64,000 nt of DNA from Gymnodinialimonas sp. 202GB13-11 (GTDB lineage: Bacteria > Pseudomonadota > Alphaproteobacteria > Rhodobacterales > Rhodobacteraceae), in NCBI RefSeq assembly GCF_040932485.1, contig NZ_JBFRBH010000001.1, positions 186,001 to 250,000 of the forward strand, in the 5' to 3' direction. Under the pieces are notes generated by a model. That model saw only the letters and a list, made by a program, of their open reading frames with translations, did no database searches and had not been told where the DNA came from. The position numbers were made by a program, and so were the translations under genes. How positions within the stretch are numbered: the stretch's first letter is position 1; each line of letters starts with the position of its first letter. Positions 39,096 to 53,598 of this stretch are shown here, piece after piece.

Positions 39096-39938
39096 ATGGA
39101 CAAAAACACCCTCCGCGCATTGCCCCTCATGTTGCTCGCCATGGCGCTGATCCCGGCGGGTGATGCAGCCGGCAAGGTACTCACACAAGCGGGGGCTGCC
39201 CCGGTCTTTGTGGCGTGGAGTCGCTTTGCCCTTGGCGCGCTGATGATCGCGCCCTTCGCGCTCAACGCCCTCGCACCTCGACTCTTTCTCGACTGGCGCG
39301 TCTGGCTGCGCGCACTCTTCATCGTGGGCGGCATCACCTCGATCCTGACGGCACTCAGGACCGAGCCCATCGCCAACGTCTTCGGCGCATTCTTCGTAGG
39401 GCCCATCATCTCATGGCTCCTGTCTGTCTGGCTTTTGCGCGAACCGTTCTCGGCCCTCCGCCTTGGCCTGGTCTGCCTCGGGTTTGTTGGCGTCATCCTC
39501 GTCGTGAAACCGGGCTTCGGCATGACGCCCGGCCTCGGATTTGCGGTGCTCGCGGGGCTTTTCTATGGCGCCTACCTGGTGATGAGCCGCTGGATCGGCG
39601 GCATTGCACGTCCCCGCGCGTTACTCCTGTCGCAACTGGCCATTGGCGCGCTTGTCCTCGCGCCCCTCGGCCTCACCGCCATTCCGCCCCTAACACCAGA
39701 AATCGCGGGGCTGACCTTCGCCTCTGCCTTCTGCTCCATGGCCGGAAATTTCTTGCTCATCCTCGCCTATCGCCGGGCCGAGGCCAGCCGCATGGCGCCC
39801 TTTGTCTACACCCAACTGATCTGGGCGACGGTCTTCGGCGCGTTTTTCTTCGGCGACTTTCCAGACTCTATCGCCCTCGGAGGTCTCGCCATCCTGCTGA
39901 TCTCCGGACTTGCGGGCCTGGTCGGCAAGCGGACCTAA
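39096..39938 (+). CDS. DMT/EamA family transporter
   Basis: About 280 residues with ten helices in two EamA repeats. [19 protein letters not shown] and [24 protein letters not shown] in repeat one, and [21 protein letters not shown] and [24 protein letters not shown] in repeat two. These are drug/metabolite exporters. ATG 39096 ([10 protein letters not shown]) is preferred; the Shine-Dalgarno is weak. It converges with nadD and overlaps it by four bases. Confidence 0.9.
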
Positions 39939-40534
39939 CCCCATTCCCCGCGCGCGCGGATCGCCGATGAGGAGACATCTCGCATCGGCACATTGAGGAA
40001 ACACCAGGCTGGCGCCTCCGCCCGCCCCAACAGGCGCGCGGCACTCGCCGGTAGTTTCGCATCCCGATAACGTTGTGCGGCCACGCTGGTCCGTGCCGAA
40101 ATCCGCTGCCCAGGCCGCGCCAGCACGCCAATCGGCACATGCTCCATGATCCAGTCCCAGTGCTGCCAGCGATGGAATTGCGCCAGATTATCCGCGCCCA
40201 TCAGCCAGACAAATCGAACACCGGGGTAAAGCGCCTGCAAGGCGCCAAGCGTCTCCGCCGTATACCGTGTCCCGATCAGCGCCTCGATATCAGTCGCCAT
40301 AACGCGGGGATGCCGGATCACCCCGCGTGCCGCCGCCATCCGCCGCTCCAACGGGGCAGGGCCATGCGCTTTCAACGGATTCCCAGGCGAAACCAACCAC
40401 CAAACCCGATCCAGCCCGAACCGCTTCAACGCCTCTCGGCTGACATGCACATGCCCCTCGTGCGGCGGATCAAAAGACCCGCCGAACAGGCCAATCACCT
40501 GGCCGGGCATCGCAAAGGGCATCTCATGGCGCAT
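39935..40534 (-). CDS. nadD: Nicotinate-nucleotide adenylyltransferase
   Basis: About 199 residues. The nucleotidyltransferase motif [22 protein letters not shown] and the ISARTS-like C-terminal S-S-x-R segment ([11 protein letters not shown]) are diagnostic. It adenylates nicotinate mononucleotide in NAD synthesis. The ATG at 40534 (MRHEMPF) is a compromise; homologues may begin a few residues further on. The ribosome-silencing rsfS gene often linked to nadD is not in its usual adjacent place here. Confidence 0.92.
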
Positions 40535-40619
40535 CACGCGCGCTCTCCCACGAAAAACGCGCGCCTTGATGGGGCGGCAGGGCGGGCCTGTCAATCAACC
40601 ACGCCCCACCGCCCCAAAG

Positions 40620-40829
40620 CTATAACAGCCTGAAGGGATCCCGCGTGGGCGGGTCACCGGTCCGCTGCTGCACCTTTCGATGATGCGGCGGCAGGCCGAC
40701 ATCACGCCGCAGATAATCGGGGATATCCGTATCCTTGGGCTTGATCTGCGTTTCGTCAAAGGGCCGGATCAGCCAACCTTGGAACCGGCGCAACAGGGTC
40801 AGGGGGTTGAAACGTGCTTTCGTCTGCAT
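40620..40829 (-). CDS. Small basic protein of unknown function
   Basis: About 69 residues, rich in Arg, Lys and Pro (MQTKARFNPLTLLRRFQGWL, then IPDYLRRDVGLPPHHRKVQQR). AAGGAAAG precedes ATG 40829. The YLRRDVGLP segment recalls the DUF1127 core, but the match is short. It lies 74 bases downstream of a terminator-bearing leader on the same strand and upstream of nadD. Confidence 0.65.
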   Translation of the reverse strand: MQTKARFNPLTLLRRFQGWLIRPFDETQIKPKDTDIPDYLRRDVGLPPHHRKVQQRTGDPPTRDPFRLL

Positions 40830-40902
40830 GGGTCTTTCCTTTTGTAGGGAAAGCCGCCGCACGAAGGGACAGACAGATTGCGATTTGGGTAGAGATACCG
40901 AA

Positions 40903-40932
40903 GCAAAAAGAAAGGCCGCGTCGCGGGCGGCC
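40903..40932 (-). terminator. Rho-independent terminator of the short leader transcript
   Basis: Minus-strand GGCCGC (40932-40927) pairs with GCGGCC (40919-40914) around a 7-nt loop, followed by TTTCTTTTT. It stands between the 18-codon ORF and the small basic-protein gene. Confidence 0.85.
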
Positions 40933-40974
40933 TGTGGGATGGATTGTCAGAACAACCCGTCTCTTGGCCGCGCC

Positions 40975-41031
40975 CTAGGGGGCGAGTGCTACGCCCACCG
41001 GGCGCATTCCAAAGAGACAAGAGATAGCCAT
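40975..41031 (-). CDS. 18-residue leader ORF with strong Shine-Dalgarno
   Basis: The peptide reads MAISCLFGMRPVGVALAP. AAGGAG lies six bases before the ATG, a better ribosome-binding site than most genes here. It is followed by a terminator. Its coding sequence pairs with sequence at and after its stop: GUCUCUU with AAGAGAC, GG with CC and GCGCCC with GGGCGC. That geometry is typical of leader peptides that control terminator formation. No single amino acid is enriched, so if it senses something it may be an arrest peptide and not an amino-acid counter. Confidence 0.6.
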   Translation of the reverse strand: MAISCLFGMRPVGVALAP

Positions 41032-41260
41032 GACAGGCTCCTTCCGGGTTTCGGTAACGCTCGCATAACAAGGCCCGGCAGAGTCGGTCCACAAAAAAAT
41101 CGTGTCGGCTTGTGATCGGCGGATGCTCACCATCTCACGCGCGAATAGGGCTTAAGTAAAGTTCTAAGAAGAAATTCGGATGCTGCATCAACCTGTTAAC
41201 CGTTGCTTGGCGCGACTGCGCTTACGGTGCCGAACAAGGTGTTAGAGCAGGTCGGAATCC

Positions 41261-43213
41261 GTGCAAGCGATTGAGAATTTTTTTGGCGGTTTCAACTTTG
41301 CGGAGTCCGTGGCCACCCAATGGCTCAGTGTGTTTGTCGCAGTGGAAAGCGCCCTGGTTGTTCTTTTATTGATTACCTTTGCACTCCTGCGCACCAAGAT
41401 CACGGCCGCCCGAAGAGCGCAGATTGCGTTGGAGGAAATCGAAAAAGCACTTGATGATGTTGCAGCAGACGAAGCGATCTTTCGGGCCGTTGCACAGCAC
41501 GCCAATGACGGCCTGCTTTATCAGGATATGGAAGCCCGCATTATCTGGGCCAACAGTTCGTATTGCCGAACCATGGGCTATGACCTTGAAGAGATTGTGG
41601 GCCGCAAGCCCCAGGAATTCTGTTTTCCCCCGCAACAAAAACCCTCACGAAAACAGATCGAAGCCTTTCGCTTTGACCCAAATGACGACACGTTCAAAAC
41701 CTTTCATCGCCATCCCAATATTCGGAAGAACGGAGAGCGCTTCTGGCACGAATTCAGTCAGGCTGTTGTTGAGCCTAGGCCGGGCGAGCAACGTGTTGTT
41801 CTTGTGTCCCGAGATGTCACCCAGCAAGTCCAACGCGAGTCCGAGTTGGAAGATGCCAAGACCTTCCTGACCCATGCCGCCGACCACGATGCGCTGACAG
41901 GCTTGCTGAACCGCGCAGCGTTTTTGCGCCGTGCGGATGAGGTGTTGGGTCGCCCAAGCGCGCGGGATCGCCAAATGGGTCTCATTTGCATCGACCTCGA
42001 TCACTTCAAGGCGATCAACGACAGCAATGGCCACGCCGTTGGTGACCAAATCCTCATCCACGTCGCTGAAGCCATGAAGGCTGCCGGGAGTGGCGACGCG
42101 ATCAACTGTCGTATGGGTGGCGATGAATTTGTCATGGCCATTCCCGGCATCGCCGATTTTGACACACTTCAGGTGCTGGCGGACAATTTGCTGGAACGTA
42201 TCCGCACCCCAATCGACGTTTATGAAACGACTCTGACATGCAACGCCTCCATCGGCCTCGCCTTGGGGGAGGGCGCCCCGATCACCGCCGAAGACCTGAT
42301 ACGCTCCGCCGATTTCGCCCTCTACGAGGCCAAAGTACCCGGCGCACCGTCCATTGCGCGTTATGACGCCGACCTGCACGAGCGTCAGGTGCACGAGAAT
42401 GCGATGATGGAAGAGTTCGTCGATGCGCTCGACAATGATGGGATCACCTTCCAGCATCAGCCCATCCTCGACGGCCGCACTGGCAAGATCCGTTCCTTTG
42501 AGACCCTGGCCCGATGGACCCGCACCAATGGTGAAAGAGTGCCCCCGGACCGTTTCCTTCCCTTCGCCGCCCGCATCAATCGGATGACTGATGTCGATTT
42601 CGCCGCAGTCCGCGCCACCGCCTCGCTCGTGGCTGATCTCAGGGCCCGCGGCCACAAGATACTGGGCGCCTTCAACACCTCGTCCGAGGCTTTGGCCCAC
42701 CCCGACTTCCTTACTCGGCTGGAGGAGGAGGCGCGGATCGCCAACCTCTCCCCCGACCACATGATCGCCGAGGTTCTGGAGACGACCTTCTTCGGCGCCG
42801 ACACCACGGACAGCGTCGCCGCCGCCCGCATCAACCAACTGCGTGAGAAGGGCTACACCGTCTATCTCGACGATTTCGGCGTCGGCTATGCCGGCCTCGC
42901 CCATCTTGGCCAACTCAATGTCAGCGGCGTCAAACTCGACCGCAGCCTGATCGCCAACGTCACGTCCGAACGCTCCGCCCGCATCATCACCACATCCATT
43001 CTGCGCCTGTGCCACACCCTCGGCGTCGGCACGCTTGCCGAAGGCATAGAAACCCGCGAACAAGCCGAATTTCTCCTCAAACACGGCTGCTACCGCCTGC
43101 AAGGCTTCGGTATTGCCCGACCCATGTCACGCGCGGCGCTAATCGACTTCGTGGAACAAGGGGCCGAAATCACGATCCTGTCCGAGCATGACCGCTTCGC
43201 CCAAAGCGCCTGA
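41261..43213 (+). CDS. PAS-GGDEF-EAL cyclic-di-GMP signalling protein
   Basis: About 650 residues, GTG start. One N-terminal helix (about 20-45) is followed by a PAS domain (about 75-195; IWANSSYCRTMGYDLEEIVGRKP). A GGDEF domain follows, with the intact motif in CRMGGDEFVMAIPG, then an EAL domain. The EAL signature is altered to ETL (SFETLARW), while downstream catalytic segments such as MIAEVLET, YLDDFGVGYAGL and VKLDRSLI are retained. It may both make and degrade c-di-GMP or act mainly in one direction. Confidence 0.92.
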   Translation: MQAIENFFGGFNFAESVATQWLSVFVAVESALVVLLLITFALLRTKITAARRAQIALEEIEKALDDVAADEAIFRAVAQHANDGLLYQDMEARIIWANSSYCRTMGYDLEEIVGRKPQEFCFPPQQKPSRKQIEAFRFDPNDDTFKTFHRHPNIRKNGERFWHEFSQAVVEPRPGEQRVVLVSRDVTQQVQRESELEDAKTFLTHAADHDALTGLLNRAAFLRRADEVLGRPSARDRQMGLICIDLDHFKAINDSNGHAVGDQILIHVAEAMKAAGSGDAINCRMGGDEFVMAIPGIADFDTLQVLADNLLERIRTPIDVYETTLTCNASIGLALGEGAPITAEDLIRSADFALYEAKVPGAPSIARYDADLHERQVHENAMMEEFVDALDNDGITFQHQPILDGRTGKIRSFETLARWTRTNGERVPPDRFLPFAARINRMTDVDFAAVRATASLVADLRARGHKILGAFNTSSEALAHPDFLTRLEEEARIANLSPDHMIAEVLETTFFGADTTDSVAAARINQLREKGYTVYLDDFGVGYAGLAHLGQLNVSGVKLDRSLIANVTSERSARIITTSILRLCHTLGVGTLAEGIETREQAEFLLKHGCYRLQGFGIARPMSRAALIDFVEQGAEITILSEHDRFAQSA

Positions 43214-43294: not shown

Positions 43295-44946
<1,652 letters not shown>

Positions 44947-44950
<4 letters not shown>

Positions 44951-53343: not shown

Positions 53344-53515
53344 GATGCCCCCTCTGTCCTTTGGCCTGAGATCGTTATCCCTTCGGCGGAGGGTGTGAGC
53401 CCTCACTCTCCAGAGTATGTGCGTGCCACCACAGGTCCTTTTGCCTGAGAGATTACCGGGGCGGTTGCTCCTTCGGCCCGAGGGTGCGCCAACGGCACGC
53501 CCAAGAGTCTCCCTA
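53344..53515 (-). promoter_or_regulatory. Tandem glycine riboswitch
   Basis: Two adjacent aptamers precede gcvT on the minus strand. The first (about 53427-53515) starts GGGAGACTC and contains GCCGAAGGAGCAACC and CTCTCAGGCAAAAGGAC. The second (about 53344-53420) contains CTGGAGAGTG, GCCGAAGGGATAAC and ATCTCAGGCCAAAGGAC. Both show the conserved glycine-aptamer core. Tandem arrangement upstream of gcvT is typical and turns the operon on with glycine. Confidence 0.96.
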
Positions 53516-53598
53516 TGGTTGCATGCGAAAGCATACATCCGGTTTGGCAAGGATCAAGAGGGATTGATAGAAGCCCTCAATTGCCCCATTGGAAGGGC

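Follow-up and report, generated by a model that had tools for sequence, protein, structure and literature searches.

A short open reading frame (ORF) with its own ribosome-binding site, followed by a terminator-like hairpin and a small basic gene, raises the question whether it regulates that gene and, if so, which signal it reads. Such an arrangement occurs in the window, as we call the analysed 64,000-nt stretch of Gymnodinialimonas sp. 202GB13-11. Sequence comparison and folding models point to a ribosome-mediated transcription attenuator that probably senses general translation and controls a DUF1127-like small gene.

Layout of the leader element

The element lies on the minus strand, where the preliminary description had reported an 18-residue ORF with AAGGAG in front of it, a stem between this ORF and the sequence behind its stop codon, and a rho-independent terminator. 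All of these were recovered. The upstream ORF (uORF; 18 codons plus TAG, MAISCLFGMRPVGVALAP) runs from 41031 to 40975, in an order and frame common to the 17 cassettes described below, and its Shine-Dalgarno (SD) sequence AAGGAG occupies 41043–41038. Folding and permutation identify strand 1, the uORF codons CTTGTCTCTTTGGAATGCGCCC (41000–41021), as a partner of the post-stop strand 2, GGCGCGGCCAAGAGACGGG (40956–40974), which could pair with strand 1 or strand 3; GGCGCGGCC stands immediately 3' of the uORF stop. Strand 3, AGGCCGCCCGCGA (40921–40933), comprises the 5' arm and the loop of the terminator and has strands 2, 4 and 5 as possible partners, and strand 4 comprises the 3' arm CGCGGCCT and the T-rich tail (40903–40920). 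A terminator scan returned this intrinsic terminator as AGGCCGCCCGCGACGCGGCCT with the tail TTCTTTTTGC (40933–40903) and a stem of 7 pairs at 40933–40913; terminator-like matches are not rare in the window, where 6 were found vs 3.8 expected. The 162-nt leader fold includes both the ORF:post-stop stem and the terminator, reaches −71.2 kcal/mol (z = −3.45) and was matched in stability by none of 200 shuffled sequences.

Further downstream on the same strand, strand 5, TCGTGCGGCGGCTTTCC (40848–40864), can pair with strand 3 (13 pairs in the window) or, via CTTTCC, with strand 6, the SD sequence GGAAAG of the next gene (40834–40839). This gene (40620–40829), presumed to be the regulated one, encodes a 69-aa basic DUF1127-like protein (..DIPDYLRRDVGLPPHHRK..) and is followed by a CTP_transf_like gene (39938–40537), in agreement with the small basic gene and nadD named earlier. 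The other flank is formed by a divergent PAS-GGDEF-EAL gene (41261–43213, plus strand). A possible promoter upstream of the uORF, TTGTGG-18-TGTTAT (41065–41094, minus strand), was picked by eye alone and is absent from the output of the consensus promoter scan. Rfam covariance models gave no match at 40600–41200 up to E = 1, and none at gathering score. Elsewhere, the window holds a glycine riboswitch aptamer (RF00504, 55.2 bits; 53423–53524, minus strand).

Conservation of the cassette

The cassette consists of a short ORF of variable sequence, its stop codon, a CGCGG motif, a terminator and a gene for a DUF1127-like protein of 65–74 aa. Counting the window's own genome, 8 of the 13 genomes of its genus have this layout, as do nine other Rhodobacterales sequences, which gives 17 cassettes; an 18th (G203) was found later by covariance model R1. 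Blast searches with the leader matched 5 of 61 genomes, own included and all from one genus, and a DNA search at E ≤ 1 picked up short stretches of similarity in each of the 13 genus genomes; inspection of seven lower-scoring loci from the latter added one cassette, G008. The nadD locus carries uORF, terminator and gene in G000, G002, G003, G004, G006, G008, G009 and G010 and lacks the cassette in G001, G005, G007, G011 and G012, a comparison that covers the nadD locus. In G007 (L046), the sequence upstream of nadD encodes VPDYPRDDVGL, which by eye looks like a relic of the small gene and comes without uORF and terminator.

A profile of the small protein, scanned against public genome contigs, fetched 12 loci, of which 11 have the layout (L148–L158; five of the window's genus, HKCCD6576, a Rhodophyticola MAG, HKCCE2091, HKCCE3408, Rhodophyticola porphyridii and Boseongicola sp. 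H5) and the twelfth, from Devosia (L159), does not. Further cassettes outside the genus came from G265, G336 and G099, the last via the DNA pattern GCGGCTTTCC-SD-ATG, which matched 11 of 394 family genomes; seven new loci from this pattern were inspected and a cassette was seen in G099 only. GCGGCTTTCC itself is found in strand 5 of 16 of the 17 cassettes. Since the set was gathered by a similar gene, the strand-5 pattern or the layout and terminator, the finding of a terminator in all 17 partly reflects how they were chosen. At E ≤ 0.1, model R1 had matches in 219 of the 394 family genomes. Its six matches of at least 63 bits are all source sequences of the model or the same loci again, and among eight lower loci inspected the layout was seen in G203 (41.6 bits) and was missing in the other seven. 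The G203 locus (L177) has a uORF (MTTFCRSLPIGARGALC), a terminator-like element and an SD hairpin, and its DUF1127-like gene looks broken by reading frames.

These counts bear on an ordinary reading of the locus, by which the terminator would end a short transcript or insulate, the uORF would be there by chance and the DUF1127-like gene would have its own promoter. The many R1 matches, most inspected ones without the layout, and the commonness of terminator-like matches in a GC-rich window would suit such a reading, but the start–stop–CGCGG–terminator–strand 5 order in 17 cassettes and the covariation that ties the terminator loop to the leader of the gene (see below) argue against it, and we give it very little credence. 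The preliminary description had proposed a search of homologous loci; layout and terminator occur in 17 cassettes across genera, so that the element is conserved beyond the strain. Sequence comparison thereby confirmed a feature beyond chance, with its layout also at related loci and in other genera.

As a side observation, an ettA-like ABC-F gene shares the cassette locus in 8 of 9 cases outside the genus (L153–L158, L087 and L089; not L160). In the window, the corresponding gene (43295–44950, plus strand), which we take to be ettA-like from its sequence, is one gene away, with the GGDEF-EAL gene in between.

The uORF and its peptide

All 17 uORFs agree in start, frame, length (14–18 codons) and the position of the stop directly ahead of the post-stop motif, and the peptides are unrelated between genera. 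An SD sequence of at least 4 bases was seen by eye in 14 of 17 and is weak in G008, G010 and G099. The motif CGCGG lies within the first nine post-stop bases in 14 of 17, the exceptions being G004 (CGTGG), G003 (CGCTG) and G336 (CGGC). Within the genus, the peptides end in G[VA]xx[AT]P-stop (GVALAP, GAVQAP, GVSLAP, GVKLAP, GAVLAP, GAASAP and, in G003, GALRTP), and outside it in QTP, VHR, THA, DNA, LDP, STP, APF or SPS.

Similar ends within the genus could suggest an arrest peptide of the TnaC or SecM kind, which the preliminary description had considered plausible: a ligand or stress would cause the nascent peptide, with a C-terminal RPxGxxxAP-stop in part of the genus, to stall the ribosome, and a proline before the stop codon can slow termination. 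However, the ends differ outside the genus, so that a similar tail, as opposed to a conserved motif, was found in the window's genus alone; the codons of this tail coincide with an RNA hairpin in the leader fold of the window, for which the tail may be kept; and the antiterminator forms in none of the 17 cassettes when the P site of the ribosome is placed at the last two codons. Compared with G004, the nearest relative, the window uORF differs in four codons, and all four changes alter the amino acid. The idea of an arrest peptide was therefore not borne out, and we regard it as most unlikely. As the peptide is not conserved between genera, a sensor of general translation fits better, and the translation-stress sensor that had been suggested alongside is the best reading, albeit a predicted one.

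Sensing of one amino acid, as in attenuators of the trp or cysS type, would involve for instance charged tRNA-Cys or tRNA-Arg. A Cys codon is present in 9 of the 17 uORFs, and a tandem-Cys attenuator before cysS has been predicted in Rhodobacterales (PMC8632094). Against this stand the eight uORFs without Cys and the result that no tandem or shared codon was found across the 17; moreover, no match makes the regulated gene a biosynthetic one or an aminoacyl-tRNA synthetase. The lack of a tandem or shared regulatory codon thus leaves a general mechanism, and there is only a slim chance that an amino-acid-specific attenuator is at work. The codons of the window uORF are uncommon (index 0.47 vs 0.69), which is suggestive only, 6.5% of gene windows being equally low. 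Uncommon ones are GCT, TCT, TGT, GGA, GTA and GCA, several of them within the strand-1 part.

Ribosome position and the attenuator switch

To the sequence behind the stop codon the preliminary description had ascribed a choice, with its GCGGCC pairing either back to the uORF or forward to GGCCGC of the terminator (1:2 and 3:4 vs 2:3). We folded the 17 cassettes in different ribosome states, using as controls 60 sets in which the region from start codon to terminator was dinucleotide-shuffled. With the 3' arm of the terminator not yet made, the antiterminator 2:3 reached a mean probability of 0.79 with a ribosome at the start codon and 0.76 with a ribosome mid-uORF (n = 17), vs 0.13 and 0.16 in the shuffled sets, none of which was as high; values of at least 0.5 were obtained in 13 of 17 cassettes in either state. 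The mean for stem 1:2 was 0.52 vs 0.28 in shuffled sets, again with 0 of 60 as high. The proposed GCGGCC:GGCCGC pairing, averaged over the 17 cassettes, hence exceeds all 60 shuffled sets, and conservation together with folding by ribosome position supports the proposed switch in silico.

At equilibrium, the window RNA is predicted to form the terminator both when free (1.00) and with a ribosome at the uORF stop (0.99), and to switch completely with a ribosome mid-uORF (terminator 0.00, antiterminator 1.00). Taken alone in this last state, the window sequence is matched by few shuffles (n = 60), an antiterminator of 0.5 being reached by 8% before and 2% after the 3' arm is made; its stem 1:2 (0.87) is less special, as 40% of shuffles reach 0.5. 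Moving the P site along the window uORF, we obtained terminator values of at most 0.04 at codons 5–12, of 0.24–0.47 at codons 3, 4, 13 and 14, and of 0.99–1.00 at codons 1, 2 and 15–18. Placed on the start codon, a ribosome does not lower the terminator value (1.00), and a start-codon block of the tetracycline type therefore need not induce. Across the cassettes, the antiterminator forms in 15 of 17 with the P site 7–9 codons before the stop.

After synthesis of the 3' arm, the terminator remains at 0.5 or above in 13 of 17 cassettes despite a ribosome mid-uORF, so that most cassettes would need kinetic, co-transcriptional folding; a ribosome-dependent antiterminator at equilibrium was computed for 4 of 17. 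With this arm present and the ribosome on the start codon, the antiterminator (0.020) did not stand out from the shuffled sets (0.017; 21 of 60 as high).

Permutation tests used 15 of the 17 sequences, the near-duplicates BoseongH5 and G010 being dropped and the later-found G203 not being included. They support pairing 1:2 overall, which was equalled by 137 of 50,000 permutations, and by 1657 of 50,000 among genus sequences only, without significance in the eight sequences from outside the genus alone (5322 of 50,000). Helix 2:3 did not differ between native and swapped combinations (−12.92 vs −12.86), and covariation cannot test it because it is nearly invariant.

A fifth strand and a possible lock on translation

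The DUF1127-like nature of the downstream gene, its hidden SD sequence and a covarying fifth strand are additions to what had been described before. Strand 3, with the terminator loop, is complementary to strand 5 over about 13–15 pairs in most sequences. In the 15 tested sequences, the native 3:5 helix has a mean of −24.9 kcal/mol vs −20.9 kcal/mol for species-swapped helices, a level reached by none of 50,000 permutations. As good a value was reached by 1 of 50,000 in the eight sequences outside the genus, by 989 of 50,000 in the seven of the genus and, with only the part outside the GC core considered, by 0 of 50,000. On a MAFFT alignment, 90% of the 3:5 cells are paired vs 32–52% when the strands are slid by 1–3 columns, and cells with double changes number 14 vs 4.7 in shuffled alignments (0 of 500 as many). 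The covariation score was reached by 3 of 500 shuffles, and two of the five alignment measures did not rise above them (97 and 355 of 500 reached the observed value). G203, from outside the test set, gives mixed support: its strand 3 prefers its own strand 5 (−19.1 vs −15.8 for the next best among 17), and its strand 5 pairs better with 16 of 17 foreign strands 3 than with its own. The hairpin of strand 5 with the SD sequence (CTTTCC/GGAAAG) was equalled by 60 of 50,000 permutations.

Strand 3 pairs with strand 4 or with strand 5 and therefore cannot form the terminator and free the SD sequence at once. As helix 3:5 is incompatible with the terminator and also with the SD-hiding hairpin, one strand may lock transcription and translation. 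The simplest reading of these models is that antiterminated RNA could open its SD sequence and leaky read-through RNA could not. In the full-length window RNA, helix 3:5 was computed at 0.31 in the free state; it rose to 0.50 when a ribosome occupied the stop and fell to 0.00 when one stood mid-uORF. Full-length equilibrium folding is thus near balance with 3:5 often not dominant, and folding does not prove a second lock. We put a translational lock acting in cis at slightly below an even chance.

The same covariation would arise equally from pairing in trans, in which the terminated leader would be the product as a small RNA and its strand 3 would bind strand 5 on the mRNA of the same locus or else other mRNAs. 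An induced small RNA that contains the uORF is described for the Sinorhizobium meliloti duf1127-1 locus by Kothe et al. 2025 (PMC12218461). Yet both strands lie in cis within the read-through RNA, and we consider a trans-acting small RNA unlikely, though less so than the other alternatives.

The DUF1127-like protein group

The small protein has the conserved core P.YLR.D.GL and received no family name from Pfam and NCBIfam. A Pfam search with five small proteins found no family at E up to 10, with the cut-off for DUF1127 (PF06568; 23.3 bits) not reached, and relatives gave one weak DUF1127 match of 11.6 bits. In profile comparisons with hhalign, the small protein scored 83.8% against a group of 7 proteins that includes three above the Pfam DUF1127 cut-off, and 97.5% against a wider DUF1127-like set (A3), which in turn scored 96.3% against the group of 7. 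By sequence, it thus appears linked to the wider DUF1127-like set and more weakly to the set that holds true DUF1127 members.

The wider set comprises 83 places in 72 of the 394 family genomes. Among the 70 places examined as loci, the motif recognised the gene in 37 and missed it in 33, so that the uORF counts rest on 37 loci. A strong-SD uORF lies within 300 bases upstream in 28 of these, or in 26 of 35 without L087 and L089, which belong to the main cassette; control windows had such a uORF in 0 of 1162 cases on the same strand and in 0.4% on the opposite strand. In the 17 wider-set loci that were inspected, the linkers are long and mostly lack a clear terminator, similar to the S. meliloti locus. 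Loci L078–L147 (e.g., L078, L079, L081, L083, L096 and L099) form a second, larger class of uORFs before DUF1127-like genes, mostly of 21–33 codons and with AGGAGG-like SD sequences. Their peptides are unrelated, and a long linker, for the most part lacking an evident terminator, separates them from the gene. By analogy, this class may use a mechanism of the S. meliloti type.

Proposed mechanism and its significance

The layout, its conservation, the alternative pairings and the 3:5 covariation were brought out by sequence comparison and computed folding. From these we infer transcription of the element, its start point and a response of termination to ribosome position, a core attenuator that we hold to be probable. 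A ribosome moving at normal speed would reach the uORF stop and cover strand 2; strand 3 would then pair with strand 4, because the ribosome at the stop keeps strand 2 covered, and RNA polymerase would stop near 40903. Without a loaded ribosome, strand 1 would pair with strand 2, again giving the terminator. A ribosome that is slow or stalled within the uORF (codons 5–12 in the window) would cover strand 1, leaving strand 2 to pair with strand 3, and the gene would be transcribed. In the read-through RNA, strand 3 might shift to strand 5 and open the hairpin that hides the SD sequence of the gene, whereas strand 3 held in the terminator would leave strand 5 to keep the SD sequence closed. More tentatively still than the cis lock itself, we suggest a six-strand, double-lock attenuator in which the 5' arm and loop of the terminator would decide both polymerase read-through and SD opening; leaky read-through RNA would remain untranslated, and ribosome speed would be read at almost any inner uORF codon, the peptide being irrelevant.

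In classical attenuators with a leader peptide, the signal is a single amino acid or a single drug. The attenuator in the window appears to read translation itself and to control a DUF1127-related protein. The most likely reading is a conserved attenuator that has an intrinsic terminator and senses general translation, and a translational lock may be coupled to it. Coupling of a terminator to a Shine-Dalgarno sequence, as suggested by the covariation of helix 3:5, would be a simple RNA route to a low-leak switch. Finally, strong-SD uORFs at 26 of 35 other recognised DUF1127-like loci hint that uORF control is common for this protein group in the family.

Comparison with known systems

In leader attenuators of the trp type, pairings 1:2, 2:3 and 3:4 compete, and termination occurs when the leader is untranslated. 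The window shares this logic, including the predicted termination without translation, and differs from it by having no regulatory codon and a fifth strand that links the terminator to the SD sequence of the gene. Within Rhodobacterales, the uORFC-8-2 motif upstream of cysS is a predicted attenuator with a Cys-codon uORF (PMC8632094) and has in common with the window a uORF, two stems, an intrinsic terminator and a proposed ribosome-mediated attenuation; it has tandem Cys codons, cysS as its target and, in the description consulted, no strand for SD release, and the window differs in each of these. Like the window element as predicted, the toiL uORF of Escherichia coli topAI senses several translation stresses and reshapes the RNA around the downstream ribosome-binding site (PMC12121999). 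There, translation is the primary target and Rho acts inside the gene, whereas in the window an intrinsic terminator precedes the gene. For the Bacillus subtilis vmlR leader, a different gene in a different organism, the title of the report refers to attenuation of both transcription and translation at a single leader (PMC9226507). The cassette itself was not found described among the matches listed in the literature searched, a search that leaves subscription journals mostly outside.

The system closest in arrangement is duf1127-1 of S. meliloti, where attenuation by a 29-aa uORF (sORF26) was demonstrated experimentally by Kothe et al. 2025 (PMC12218461). There, tetracycline and chloramphenicol relieve the attenuation, the RNA and not the peptide matters, and the sole terminator candidate is inactive, with Rho proposed instead; the discussion of that paper also mentions an RNA-binding member of the DUF1127 family and links of the family to stress and metabolism. 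Both loci have a short uORF directly upstream of a small DUF1127 or DUF1127-like gene, although the two proteins share only distant similarity, and relief by disturbed translation at duf1127-1 is predicted alike for the window. No intrinsic terminator acts at duf1127-1, whereas the window has one, together with six competing strands, and a terminator is present in the other 16 cassettes, too. The response to the start codon also differs. Destroying the uORF start leads to expression in S. meliloti, and a block at the start codon was proposed for tetracycline (PMC12218461); in the window, by contrast, termination is predicted when the uORF is left untranslated, and a ribosome on the start codon would leave the terminator on.
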